Part shown: in pieces, positions 42,266 through 47,132 of the stretch
Numbering within the stretch: the stretch's first letter is position 1
Layout of the letters: every line of letters starts with the position of its first letter
NCBI GenBank assembly: GCA_022843175.1
Contig: JALHOE010000035.1
Coordinates: forward strand, 1 to 52,800
Length of the DNA: 52,800 bases
Direction: 5' to 3'
From: Deltaproteobacteria bacterium
GTDB lineage: Bacteria; Myxococcota_A; Polyangia; Polyangiales; JADJMO01
Notes under the pieces: generated by a model
The model's database searches: none
Seen by the model: only the letters and a program-made list of their open reading frames with translations
Told to the model about the DNA's origin: nothing
Made by a program: the position numbers and the translations under genes

Positions 42266-43429
42266 CTACACGCGCTCGAGGACAGTGGCGATGCCCTGGC
42301 CTCCGCCCACGCACATCGTGACGAGGGCAGTTTTTTGGTCGCGCGCTTCCAGCGCGTCGATCGCGGTGCTCACCAGGATCGCGCCCGTCGCCCCGAGCGG
42401 GTGACCGAGCGCGATCGCACCGCCGTCGACGTTCACGCGGTCGGGATCCAGCTCCAGCGCCTCCACCGTCTGGAGCACGACCGCGGCGAAGGCCTCGTTG
42501 ATCTCCCAGAGGTCGATGTCGCGAGGCTGCATCCGCGCACGCGCGAGCGCCTTGCGCGACGCGGGGGTCGGGCCGGTCAGCATGATCACCGGCTCGGAGC
42601 CGACGGTGGCCATCGCGCGGATCCGCGCGCGCGGTCGCAGGCCGTGCGCCCGAACGAACGACTCCGAGGCGACGAGCACCGCCGCGGCGCCGTCGGCGAG
42701 CCCGCTCGAGTTGCCAGCCGTGTGCACGTGCTCGATCCGCGAGACGTCGGGGTAGGCCCGGAGCGCCATCGCGTCGAAGTCGGTGCCGGCGAACGACGGC
42801 GGTAGCCGCGCGAGCCCGTCGGCCGTCGTCGGGCGCGGCAGCTCGTCCCGCTCGAGCCCGAACGCCGGGAACAGGCCGCGTCCCGGCTTCGCCGCGGCCG
42901 CGCGCCGCTGGGAGACCAGCGCCCACCCGTCGACGTTGGCCCGCGCGTATCGGCGACGCGTCGCGATGAGATCGGCAGAGATCCCCTGCGGCACCTGCGC
43001 GATGCGCGCGCGCAGCTGCTCGTTGCCGCCGTCCTGCCCCGCCCCGTCGGAGCCCATCGGCACGCGCGACATGCTCTCGACCCCGCCGGCCACCACCAGC
43101 TCGTGGGTGCCCGACATGACCCCCATCGCCGCCACGTGGATCGCCTGGAGACCCGAGGCACAAAAGCGATTGAGCGTGAACGCGCTGATCTCGTGCGGCC
43201 AGCCGGCGGCGAGCACCGCGTTGCGCGCGATGTTCGCCCCCTGCTCTCCGACCTGCGAGACGTTTCCGATCACGACGTCGTCGACCGAGCGCGGCTCGAT
43301 CGCCGTCCGTCGCGCGAGCTCCCGCAGCGTCGCCGCGAGGAGCTCCTGCGGATGGACGCCGGAGAGCGCGCCCTCGCGCTTGCCGCGGCCGCGCGGAGTG
43401 CGAACCGCGTCGATGATGTACGCGTCCAT
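42266..43429 (-). CDS. Acetyl-CoA acetyltransferase (thiolase)
   Basis: A 387-aa thiolase. The nucleophile Cys90 sits in [10 protein letters not shown], the CoA-site motif is GHPLGATGA and the late acidic/Cys site is [16 protein letters not shown] is the third motif. It catalyses acetyl-group transfer between CoA thioesters: either thiolytic cleavage in beta-oxidation or condensation. It is the last gene of an operon with an alpha/beta hydrolase (2-bp gap) and a TetR repressor, suggesting regulated fatty-acid or related acyl-CoA metabolism. Confidence 0.93.
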
Positions 43430-43431
43430 GA

Positions 43432-44199
43432 TCAGCCCTCCCCCGTGGCGAACGAGACGATCCGCGCGACGAGCTGCGGATCGCGCAGCATGCCGCGGTG
43501 TCCCGCGCCGAACGGAGCGTCGAGCCGACCGCTCCGTTCGGCGATCGCGCGACCGTGCTCGAACGGCACCTCGCGATCCTCGGGGTCGTGCATGACGAGG
43601 ACCTCGGCGGGGAGCGAGACACGCCGCAGATCGAGCGCGTCGAGATCGCCGAGCTCGTGCGCGACGAGCTCCAACATCTCGTCGGCGACCTGCCGCGAGA
43701 CGCCCATCCGCCGCGCCGCTGCGCGTACGAAGAAGGGCACCTCCGCCGGCGGCGCGAGCAGCGCGAGACGCTTCACCCGCGTCCCGCGCGCGACGGCGAG
43801 CGCGGCGCCCGTCGCTCCGAGCGAGTGCGCGACGATCGCGACCGGCCTCTCGCGCGCGGCGATCGCCTCGACCGCCCGCGCGAAGTCGACGACGTGCGCG
43901 CGGGTGCCGGTCGAACGGCCGTGCGCCGGCTGGTCGAACGCGACGACCCGAAACCCTGCCTCGACGAGCGGCTGCATGAACGCGCGCAGCTGTGCCGCGT
44001 GACCGTTCCAGCCGTGGACGAGGAGGATCGTCGGGCCGCTGCCGAACGACCAGGCCGCGAGCCGCTCGCCGTGGACGTCGACGAGGGTCGCGCTGGGGAG
44101 ATCGTGATCACTTCGCCGAGGCGTCTTGAACAACGCGACGGCGGCGCGGCCCATGAAACGAACGTTCGTGCTAATTTGTGGTTGTGCGAATGCGGCCAT
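43432..44199 (-). CDS. Alpha/beta-hydrolase
   Basis: 255 aa. The fold is visible: oxyanion strand [10 protein letters not shown], nucleophile elbow AHSLGATG with Ser126, acid strand [11 protein letters not shown] and a late His in GAGHRGML. The ATG at 44199 has a GAGGAG ribosome site, and a perfect TetR-like palindrome lies inside its first codons (44158-44169). It is likely to hydrolyse an ester or thioester, or a lipid. It lies between tetR and the thiolase in one operon. Confidence 0.9.
44158..44169. promoter_or_regulatory. Perfect palindrome ACGAACGTTCGT, candidate TetR operator
   Basis: A 12-bp perfect palindrome inside codons 11-14 of the hydrolase gene. About 19 of 23 positions match the box upstream of tetR (44832-44843 and flanks). 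It is a plausible second operator that could loop or block transcription. Confidence 0.6.
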
Positions 44200-44232
44200 G
44201 TGGAGCTCCTCTGCGGGGTTTCCCTTTGGTTG

Positions 44233-44820
44233 TTAACGAGCGGCCCAGATCACCAAACGTTCGAGCGACGCGCGCGCCCGCGCCTCGGCGTTCTCGTCGC
44301 GGAAGAGTCTCCGGTCGACGTTGCACGCCAGCATGATCGCGTGCAGGTCGAACGCGAACTGCGCGCCGTCGACCTGGCGGAAGTGGCCGACCTCGATCGC
44401 GCCGTCGACGATGCGCGCGATCGTCGTCCGCAGATCGCGCTGCAGCTCGACGAGGACGTCACGCGGCTTGCCCTCGCGATCGTCGAGCTCGGCGCTCGCG
44501 GCCATGAACAAGCAGCCGCCGGGCAGCGCAGGATCCTTGAGCCAGCCGAGCCAGAGCTCGAACAGCTTGAGCAGGCGGGGCAGCCCGCGCGGGGCGCGGA
44601 GCGCCGGACGGATGACCGAGACCTCGAACCGCGCCGCGGCCACCCGCAGCACCTCGACCTGCATCTCTTCCTTGGAACCGAAGTGCGCGAACAGCCCGCT
44701 CTTCGAGAGGCCGAGCTCGGTGGCGAGGCCGCCGATGCTGAGCCCCTCGAGCCCATCGCGGGTGGCGATGCGGAACGCGCGGTCGAGGATCCGCTCGCGG
44801 GTCTCGGTTCCCTTGGTCAC
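44233..44820 (-). CDS. TetR-family transcriptional repressor
   Basis: A 195-aa regulator. The HTH is LSIGGLATELGLSKSGLFAH at about residues 23-42, followed by FGSKEEM; the helical ligand domain contains the PGGCLFMAASAELDD block of the YxaF/LmrA subgroup. The GTG start at 44820 overlaps the stop of DUF1206 (GTGA). A sigma-70-like promoter with a TetR-like box between its -35 and -10 lies upstream, and a second box lies inside the hydrolase gene, so auto- and operon repression is likely. The ligand is probably a fatty-acyl or hydrophobic molecule, by subgroup analogy. Confidence 0.9.
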   Translation of the reverse strand: MTKGTETRERILDRAFRIATRDGLEGLSIGGLATELGLSKSGLFAHFGSKEEMQVEVLRVAAARFEVSVIRPALRAPRGLPRLLKLFELWLGWLKDPALPGGCLFMAASAELDDREGKPRDVLVELQRDLRTTIARIVDGAIEVGHFRQVDGAQFAFDLHAIMLACNVDRRLFRDENAEARARASLERLVIWAAR

Positions 44821-45686
44821 GCCAGAATAGTACGACCGTTCGTTTTATCGTCAACCCCCCGCACCGGCGCGACCCGGCGCTCGCGGGCGTAGACGAAGCA
44901 GAACGCCGCGAACGCCAGGATCCCGACGGACACAGCGCCGAACAGGTACGGGCCAAAGGGCTGCTCGCGCAGGTAGAGGAAGGACTCGCCGAGGCTCTTC
45001 GCCCGCGAGGGCGCCCTGTCGAGCGCCGCGCGGATGAGCCACGCGCCCATGATGGCAAACACGATCGCGCGTGCGCCGATCCCGATTCGGCCGACGGCGA
45101 TCCATGCGGCGAGGCCCAAGCGGGACATCCGGCTTCCCGCGAAGTCCTCGGCGAAGCCCGCGCGCGCAGCCTCGAGGATTTGCGCGATGCACGAGTAGAT
45201 GAGGAGCGCGCCCAGGAGCCCGACCGCGAGGGCGCCGCCGGGGAGCGTCATCAGCGCACGAGTCGTGTCGCGCGTCGGATCGCGCGGATCGGTGTGCGCG
45301 CCGATCGCGAGCTGCACGGCGAGCGGGACGAGTCCGAAGTAGAAGCACCCATTGAGGAGGAAGCCGAACCGGACCAGGAGTCCGCTCGGCGAGCGCCCCT
45401 TGCCCTCGGTGTCGGCGACGGTCTGGACGACGCGCCACAGCCCGTACCCGAAGAGCCCGACCGCGACCATCACCAGTGGCAGCGTTCCGATGCGATAGAG
45501 CGCGAAGATCGCGTCCCGCGTGCCGAGGGCGCGGCCGCCGTGCCCGAGCGCCAGCCGCAGACCGAGCGCGCCCATCACCAGATGGATCACGCCCCGGCTG
45601 GCGAGGCCGAACCGCGCGGAGAGATCGACGAATCGACTGCGCGCGGCCCGGTCGACGGCGCGGTTGGCCGCGGAGAGGCGAAGCAC
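44817..45686 (-). CDS. DUF1206 membrane protein
   Basis: 289 aa from a GTG at 45686 (the start is uncertain). About six hydrophobic helices form three pairs of similar design, as in DUF1206 proteins: FGLASRGVIHLVMGALGLRL, FGFLLNGCFYFGLVPLAVQL and RIGIGARAIVFAIMGAWLIR. Each pair begins with the family's Gly-rich R-G-V/Y pattern. It is in the inner membrane with unknown function. The stop overlaps tetR. It is divergent from the P450 gene, with 84 bp between. Confidence 0.85.
   Translation of the reverse strand: MLRLSAANRAVDRAARSRFVDLSARFGLASRGVIHLVMGALGLRLALGHGGRALGTRDAIFALYRIGTLPLVMVAVGLFGYGLWRVVQTVADTEGKGRSPSGLLVRFGFLLNGCFYFGLVPLAVQLAIGAHTDPRDPTRDTTRALMTLPGGALAVGLLGALLIYSCIAQILEAARAGFAEDFAGSRMSRLGLAAWIAVGRIGIGARAIVFAIMGAWLIRAALDRAPSRAKSLGESFLYLREQPFGPYLFGAVSVGILAFAAFCFVYARERRVAPVRGVDDKTNGRTILA
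44827..44854 (-). promoter_or_regulatory. Candidate tetR promoter with operator between -35 and -10
   Basis: On the minus strand TTGACG (44849-44854) and TACTAT (44827-44832) are 16 nt apart. The near-palindrome ACGAACGGTCGT (44832-44843) fills the spacer. The expected start site falls at or within a base or two of the tetR GTG at 44820, so the transcript would be leaderless. The same bases also encode the last residues of DUF1206. Confidence 0.55.
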
Positions 45687-45770
45687 TGTGCAGGTTCGAT
45701 TCTGGTCCTGCGGGGACGTTGTGAACCGCGGGCGTGCCTCTGCGCTGCCACCACGGCATCGTTGGGCTCC

Positions 45771-47132
45771 ATGGATGTCGTGAGACCCAACGGGCCCGAT
45801 GGCGGGATGGCGAGCCGCGTTCGAACGCTGATCGGGTTCGGGACCGATCCGCTCGGGTTCGTGCAGCGTCGCTTCGAGACCTACGGCGACATCTACTACG
45901 TGAAGAACGCGCGGGGCGGGTTCTACGTGATGAAGCACCCGGAGCACATCCACGCGGTGCTCGTCACGCAGGCGGCGAAGATGCGCAAGGAGCACTCTGC
46001 GTTCGAGCTGCTTTCGCGCGTTGTCGGGGACGGGCTCCTCACGACGGACGGCGACGTATGGAGGCGTCAACGTCGCCTGCTGCAACCCGCGTTCTCGCAG
46101 GCTCGGCTCGCGACCTATTCGACCGCGATCGTCGACGAGGCGGTCCGCATGCGCGACCAGCTGACGAGCGGACAAGAGCTCGACGTCAGCCGCGCGATGA
46201 TGGAGCTCACCCTGCGGGTCGTGTGCCGCACTCTGTTCAGCCACGACCCGCGCGGCGAGACCGACGACGTCGCCAACGCGATGAGCGCGCTGCAGGACGG
46301 CGTGTCGACGCCGGACTTCCTCCCGAGCTGGCTCCCGACCCCGCATCGTCGCAGGTTCCGCGACTCGGTCGCCGCGATCGATCGCATCGTCTACCGGATG
46401 ATCGGCGAACGTCGCTCCGGACCGGCCGCCGACGATCTGCTTCAGTCGCTCATCACTGCGTCCGACGAGCAGGGTGGCTTGAGCGAGAAGGAAATGCGGG
46501 ACCAGCTCGTCACGTTGTTCCTCGCGGGCCACGAGACGACGTCGCACGCGCTGACCTGGACCTGGTACCTGCTCTCGCAGAACCCCGAGGCCGCGCGCAA
46601 GCTGCGGGAGGAGCTCGATACGCTCGGCGGCCGCGCGCCCACCCTCGACGATCCGCTCCCCTACACCGACATGGTGATCAAGGAGTCCATGCGGATGTTC
46701 CCGCCGGTGTACCTGCTCGCACGCAGCCCGGCCGAGGACGTCGAGATCGGCGGCTACACCATCCCGCGCGGGACCGAGATCGTCCTCTGGATCTACATGA
46801 CCCACCACGATCCGCGCTGGTTCCCGGAGCCCGAACGCTTTCGGCCGGAGCGGTTCGCCGCCGACAACGAGAGCAAGCTACCGAAGAACGCCTACGTTCC
46901 GTTTGGCGCCGGTCCTCGCGCGTGCATCGGCAAACAGTTTGCGACGATCGAGGCGCGGCTGCTCCTCGCGACGCTTGCTCAGCGCTTCGCCTTCGATCTC
47001 GTCCCCGGGCATCGGGTCGCGATGCGACCGCGGGTCACGCTCAACCCGAAGTTCGGCATGAGAATGACCGCCCGCGCCCACGCGAACGCCGCCGCGGCAC
47101 CTGCTCGCCCACTCGGAGCGAGCGCTCCCTGA
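45771..47132 (+). CDS. Cytochrome P450
   Basis: A 453-aa soluble P450. The I-helix motif is LFLAGHETTSHALTW, ExxR is in IKESMRMFPPVY, the PERF region is PERFRPERF and the heme-binding loop is FGAGPRACIGKQFA with axial Cys385. The C-terminal 20 residues are Ala/Pro-rich and extra. It is like CYP102/CYP4-type bacterial enzymes in outline (long-chain or terpenoid hydroxylases), with the partner reductase not encoded nearby. The ATG at 45771 gives the normal N-terminus. A short TCAACGG repeat follows the gene. Confidence 0.93.
   Translation: MDVVRPNGPDGGMASRVRTLIGFGTDPLGFVQRRFETYGDIYYVKNARGGFYVMKHPEHIHAVLVTQAAKMRKEHSAFELLSRVVGDGLLTTDGDVWRRQRRLLQPAFSQARLATYSTAIVDEAVRMRDQLTSGQELDVSRAMMELTLRVVCRTLFSHDPRGETDDVANAMSALQDGVSTPDFLPSWLPTPHRRRFRDSVAAIDRIVYRMIGERRSGPAADDLLQSLITASDEQGGLSEKEMRDQLVTLFLAGHETTSHALTWTWYLLSQNPEAARKLREELDTLGGRAPTLDDPLPYTDMVIKESMRMFPPVYLLARSPAEDVEIGGYTIPRGTEIVLWIYMTHHDPRWFPEPERFRPERFAADNESKLPKNAYVPFGAGPRACIGKQFATIEARLLLATLAQRFAFDLVPGHRVAMRPRVTLNPKFGMRMTARAHANAAAAPARPLGASAP

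Follow-up and report, generated by a model that had tools for sequence, protein, structure and literature searches.

A TetR-type regulator gene with a predicted leaderless promoter and a candidate second operator in the first codons of the following hydrolase gene

The locus lies in a window of 52,800 nucleotides, the whole stretch of DNA that was analysed (contig JALHOE010000035.1, from a Deltaproteobacteria bacterium of the GTDB phylum Myxococcota_A). Its minus strand carries, in order, a DUF1206 gene, tetR, an alpha/beta hydrolase gene and a thiolase gene, with the following features.

44817-45722, minus strand: DUF1206 gene, upstream of tetR; its 3' end holds the tetR promoter
44827-44854, minus strand: tetR promoter, TTGACG-16-TACTAT (TTGACG 44854-44849, TACTAT 44832-44827)
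44826-44843, plus strand: O1, predicted operator in the spacer of the tetR promoter, core 44832-44843, motif AATAGTACGACCGTTCGT
44233-44820, minus strand: tetR, GTG start, 195 amino acids, TetR_N and TetR_C_13 domains
43432-44199, minus strand: alpha/beta hydrolase gene, presumed target, carrying O2; 255 amino acids, PF12697 with E 5e-17
44158-44175, minus strand: O2, predicted intragenic operator ATTAGCACGAACGTTCGT, core 44158-44169, in hydrolase codons 9-14
42266-43429, minus strand: thiolase gene, called from profile matches; third same-strand gene, outside the conserved unit

A profile search places the tetR product in the TetR family. PF00440 (TetR_N) scores 36.2 bits against a cut-off of 24 (E 5e-9), and the C-terminal ligand domain matches PF16925 (TetR_C_13) at 102.7 bits (cut-off 27, E 1.9e-29). 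The closest solved relative of this subfamily is PDB 2HYJ, a putative TetR-family regulator (E 8e-50 against the profile), for which we know of no DNA site or ligand. The DUF1206 stop and the tetR start overlap in GTGA, with the GTG of tetR at 44820, and the hydrolase gene has a good Shine-Dalgarno sequence, AGAGGAG at 44212-44206, upstream of O2. DUF1206 stands upstream of tetR at none of the other loci in a set of 206, and no thiolase gene was found at other loci of that set within the downstream bases covered. The thiolase of the window barely passed the NCBIfam model PRK08242 (514.2 against a cut-off of 514). Divergent from DUF1206 is a plus-strand open reading frame at about 45772-47132, whose motif suggests a cytochrome P450.

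O1 and O2 are copies of one asymmetric motif of about 18 bp, AAWAGNACGANCGNTCGT, with cores ACGACCGTTCGT at 44832-44843 and ACGAACGTTCGT at 44158-44169. The first-pass annotation had described boxes at 44158 and 44832-44843 as alike over about 23 bp and about 670 bp apart, one of them inside the hydrolase gene. Alignment in register (plus strand at O1, minus strand at O2) bears this out: 19 of 23 bp are identical, the runner-up match to the 23-mer within the whole window reaches 14 of 23, and the centres of O1 and O2 are 674 bp apart. The evidence for the pair sits in the flanks, because the 12-mer alone is not rare (7 found with at most two mismatches versus 3.26 expected). The full O2 motif encodes I-S-T-N-V-R, codons 9-14 of the hydrolase, its core being codons 11-14, and lies downstream of the Shine-Dalgarno sequence. 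The O1 core occupies the spacer of the tetR promoter; as is usual for the TetR family, an operator that appears palindromic overlaps the promoter of the regulator's own gene.

Relatives were gathered in two samples. The first drew on 56 near genomes, GTDB species genomes (best 80 of 543) and 282 genomes of the phylum, and gave 119 loci in 108 clusters at 90% DNA identity. The second drew on 345 genomes from the class of a Nocardioides, 349 from a betaproteobacterial order and 347 from an acidobacterial phylum, and added 98 new clusters, for 206 non-redundant tetR relatives in all; the samples are kept apart at 90% DNA identity only. A box was called at a score of at least 12 of 15 fixed positions, a level reached by 1 of 297 control stretches of 200 bp.

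TTGACG-16-TACTAT is the only sigma-70-like site in 43000-46500 (0.2 expected). Six bases separate TACTAT from the tetR GTG, so that transcription begun at the customary distance from the -10 would start on the G. Most relatives have TATTNT as their -10 element, three bases further on and 16 bp from TTGAC; TACTAT is the consistent -10 here because the -35 element of the window sits 3 bp further upstream. A lenient, optimised search found a -35/-10 pair (at least 3 of 6 matches in each element) in 79 of 95 O1-bearing clusters, spaced by 16-18 bp in 72. The distance from -10 to the tetR start codon is 6 nt in 34 of these 79 clusters and 5-8 nt in 57. A Shine-Dalgarno sequence of at least 4 nt precedes 2 of 73 tetR starts, versus 59 of 72 hydrolase starts. 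With the start codon at the predicted transcription start and this lack of a Shine-Dalgarno sequence, a leaderless tetR mRNA is supported as a prediction. It had been proposed from the letters of the window alone that the first transcribed base is at or next to the GTG, that the message is leaderless and that the promoter encodes the end of DUF1206. These points stand up: the promoter lies within the DUF1206 reading frame and stops six bases short of the GTG, and the leaderless arrangement recurs over many phyla.

O2 goes with the hydrolase. It is present in 113 of the 126 clusters in which the hydrolase gene adjoins tetR and in 9 of the 79 testable clusters in which it does not (first sample, 74/80 and 7/27 testable; second sample, 39/46 and 2/52). 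O1 is found in 76/80 and 35/46 hydrolase-adjacent clusters of the first and second samples, respectively. Both boxes occur in 71 of the 80 in the first sample, O1 only in 5, O2 only in 3 and neither in 1. O1 and O2 tend to be gained or lost together, because six of the seven second-sample hydrolase-adjacent clusters without O2 are also without O1. O2 is missing from 13 of the 126 hydrolase-adjacent clusters; in G058 and G123 (L219, L223), tetR and hydrolase gene abut or overlap, and O2 was not found. In the GTDB scan (best 80 of 543), the pair spans Myxococcota, Actinobacteria, Acidobacteriota, Gemmatimonadota, Planctomycetota and Proteobacteria; organism names may be wrong for some metagenome bins, such as L056, listed as Klebsiella pneumoniae. 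This distribution suggests that the candidate two-site switch is old or often shared, and conservation over many phyla also supports autorepression, as the first-pass annotation had suggested. The orientation of O1 varies (68 versus 26 aligned loci), and that of O2 is near-uniform (81/81 in the first sample and 40/41 in the second, the exception being L314). A coding position is usual for O2, not obligatory: in L088, L145, L308, L320 and L340 it lies ahead of the coding region.

Codon usage indicates at which level O2 is conserved. Seventy-three of 80 hydrolases carry the O2 peptide pattern. At loci picked by homology and peptide (the same test on loci picked by DNA score is partly circular), O2 uses AGC for 63 of 64 Ser, ACG for 72 of 73 Thr and GTT for 53 of 55 Val, versus 24%, 42% and 5%, respectively, in the rest of the same hydrolase genes. 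Judging by these codons, O2 is kept by DNA-level selection on synonymous codons. It is highly improbable that the N-terminal peptide, K/N-S-T-x-V-R, has a function in the protein to which the DNA likeness to O1 is secondary. The reading frame of O2 is the same in 72/74 and 34/39 hydrolase loci, as a peptide function would have it, but synonymous codons are fixed, residues 4-5 vary (N/T/I/S and V/G/D/A), and relatives differ in the length of the linker between O2 and the hydrolase domain. The same DNA is also read in another frame, as K-K-H-D/E-R-S, in the DUF1127 proteins of L067, L078 and L073, where a DUF1127 gene replaces the hydrolase gene next to tetR. In L084 and L114, the gene after tetR encodes a GNAT protein and carries O2; the start of the L114 protein resembles the start of the L092 hydrolase, as though the part with the operator had been retained and the remainder exchanged. 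Hydrolase here means a homology-supported open reading frame in the relatives, and L031 has none.

Other accounts of the shared box were rejected. A hydrolase start at codon 16, which would place O2 in the leader, is contradicted by an in-frame start kept 1-15 codons before O2 in 72 loci, with a Shine-Dalgarno sequence at these upstream starts in 59. An antisense promoter at O2, where the antisense-strand flank GCTATTT resembles the O1 -10, has no conserved -35; the flank belongs to the operator, because O1 itself is opposite in orientation in 26 aligned loci. An mRNA hairpin was set aside as the reason for the shared motif: O1 lies upstream of the predicted start and is untranscribed from the tetR promoter, so the motif points to DNA.

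Operators near gene starts usually mark promoters, and on this general ground the hydrolase gene might have an internal promoter of its own under the control of O2. Hydrolases unlinked to tetR lend this some support. Each of the two alphaproteobacterial genomes that contain L067 and L078 has a family hydrolase with no tetR within 1.5 kb. Its first codons still hold O2, and it has a promoter-like stretch of its own with an O1-like box (13 of 15 in one genome, 12 of 15 in the other). At these two hydrolases the O1-like box lies 84 or 113 bp upstream, over a plausible promoter; the O1-O2 distance is 113 bp at the unlinked hydrolase of L248. Two other unlinked hydrolases, L224 and L226, have no box. 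At the operon loci the evidence runs the other way: 81 aligned loci have no conserved -35/-10 from 90 bp upstream to 50 bp downstream of O2, whereas O1 loci do show promoter elements, and the sole promoter-like site in 43000-46500 of the window is the one at O1. An internal promoter is quite improbable.

Sites elsewhere are few. In the 9.75-Mb genome of the window, the motif with flanks has an exact match only at O1 and one-mismatch matches at O2 and at a site on contig C15. This search for further boxes, which the first-pass annotation had anticipated, found no strong site besides O1 and O2 other than the one on C15, in an assembly of 470 contigs (G000) where a site in a gap could escape. At up to two mismatches, the genome has 23 sites versus 18 for a reversed control. 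An exact search of 282 genomes of the phylum gave 27 copies versus 4 for the reversed control; 23 are at tetR loci, and the 4 elsewhere equal the control count. On these counts, the regulator seems to serve a single target, now and then joined by a second unit.

The distance between O1 and O2 ranges from 634 to 811 bp in the first sample, with a median of 683.5. At a period of 10.5 bp, its vector strength is 0.283 (n=78, Rayleigh p 0.0019), and a scan of periods from 8 to 14 bp peaks at 10.4 bp. Random re-pairing of the two part-distances reaches 0.283 with P 0.0018, the maximum over all periods has P 0.0185 against a smoothed null, and the distance from O1 to the hydrolase start has a vector strength of just 0.057 at 10.5 bp. 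The second sample initially gave p 0.13 with a peak at 13.4 (n=26); after addition of 39 stretches, it gave 0.299 (n=34, p 0.048) with a peak at 10.4, and p 0.0195 for the preset phase. Both samples combined give p 0.0002 (n=112), relatedness among loci being incompletely removed from these tests. With one locus per 65%-protein-identity cluster (54 clusters), p is about 0.008 (shuffle 0.007), and with one per 60% cluster (29), it is 0.16 (shuffle 0.17), where the phase signal fades. This modest helical phasing is suggestive and points to bridging of the two sites, short of proof.

The reading that we favour, and hold to be somewhat probable, combines autorepression at O1 with a loop-assisted block of elongation at O2, in the manner of gal OE/OI. 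It builds on what the comparison of loci supplies, namely the two sites, their co-occurrence, DNA-level selection on O2, modest phasing and leaderless geometry. TetR would bind both copies of the asymmetric operator. By occupying O1, which lies between the -35 and the -10 of the predicted leaderless tetR promoter, it would block initiation. A second dimer on O2, among the opening codons of the effector gene, would obstruct RNA polymerase, O2 being in the presumed transcribed region downstream of the start. The two bound proteins would probably be bridged by a loop of about 680 bp, making the block stronger. The leak that sustains repressor synthesis would thereby be kept out of the effector gene until a presumed ligand frees the repressor. 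TetR-family proteins are usually dimers, a point against the proposed bridging of two distant sites. In the window, read-through from DUF1206 could be a further source of polymerases for O2 to stop; it is not a general reason for O2, because DUF1206 is upstream in no other of the 206 loci.

The two halves of this combination can each be taken alone. O2 might be a plain roadblock of the purB type, with no loop and with a phase owed to shared ancestry or chance, a view that we find doubtful. In favour of this view, O2 follows the promoter and sits at the 5' end of its target, its orientation is near-uniform (81/81, 40/41), and O1-O2 distances range widely. For LacI, roadblocking has been analysed at weak and strong promoters, with measurements of its dependence on promoter strength and on operator affinity (PMC4132739). 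The 10.4-10.5 bp coherence in two samples, absent for the distance from O1 to the hydrolase start, argues otherwise. That same phasing would suit the converse view, on which O2 serves chiefly to anchor a loop and thereby increase TetR occupancy at O1, as in the gal repressosome, and any elongation block is incidental; so would the 113 bp between O1 and O2 at the unlinked L248 hydrolase, equal to the gal OE-OI distance (PMC4693257). A pure anchor could be anywhere, however, and O2 lies between tetR and the effector gene or in the first codons of the latter, where elongating polymerase has to cross it; we rate a mere anchor as unlikely. The first-pass suggestion of a downstream roadblock or DNA loop is upheld as a candidate pair, by selection on O2, its presence at unlinked hydrolases in two genomes and the phasing.

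By analogy, the nearest known design is gal OE/OI. GalR belongs to the LacI/GalR family, works with HU and is encoded elsewhere, whereas the regulator here is of TetR type and in most cases encoded by the first gene of the unit, with a typical distance of about 680 bp. In the E. coli gal operon, OI is at +53.5 and the galE ATG at +27, with 113 bp between OE and OI (PMC4693257), and repression there is reported to depend on helical phasing, according to the title of a study cited in that paper. As in gal, one operator is at the promoter and another, with the same motif, falls within the opening codons of the first structural gene. He and Zalkin reportedly described in 1992 a roadblock by PurR at E. 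coli purB; there, too, the repressor acts on elongation from a site located beyond the transcription start, as is proposed here. purB has one site and a repressor of another family, and we know of no conservation of its roadblock over phyla. Baumeister is said to have described in 1991 a leaderless tetR mRNA in Tn1721, likewise a TetR-type repressor made from a message without a 5' leader, as predicted here. Tn1721 tetR and tetA are divergent and share operators, and to our knowledge there is no intragenic second operator. LacI is a tetramer. It regulates its own gene by a roadblock at O3 (PMC3711431), and looping turns a weak LacI site into a strong block in vitro (PMC5477534). The proposal here resembles these accounts in that elongation would be blocked by an operator-bound repressor with the help of looping; unlike lac O3, which controls lacI itself, O2 would act on the next gene.

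Each component has precedents; for a self-encoded TetR whose intragenic operator is conserved across phyla, no description turned up in the literature searched by core sequences and words, subscription papers being mostly outside its coverage. Intragenic operators tend to be presented as isolated examples from E. coli (lac O2, gal OI, purB); O2 is one kept from Myxococcota to other phyla, with measurable selection on synonymous codons. Its dozens of natural spacing variants could help to find out whether repressors of the TetR type form DNA loops, and the arrangement opens the question of how an operon-encoded repressor stays made while its target stays off. More generally, this TetR subfamily might use a gal-like loop of about 680 bp over its own gene, with O2 in whichever gene follows, as a polar, TetR-bridged operator by which repressor and target on one mRNA are repressed to different degrees. 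We offer this as a tentative generalization, leaning against it more than for it. In such hydrolases, the initial residues may owe their identity to the operator rather than to protein function.

Some branches depart from the common arrangement. In the acidobacterial loci L325 and L327-L330, tetR adjoins the hydrolase gene and neither box is present, perhaps marking a branch with another operator. L082, L106, L117 and L119 form a tetR branch in which the next gene, which may encode an acyl-CoA dehydrogenase, starts M-x-x-Y-x-x-P-L-R-D-x-Q-F-V; O2 is absent from all four and O1 from three. Tandem boxes occur at L196/L204 (G058), with two in the promoter and O2 not found. Two boxes are also present in the promoter of L047, and in L066 the promoter and the hydrolase start contain two each.
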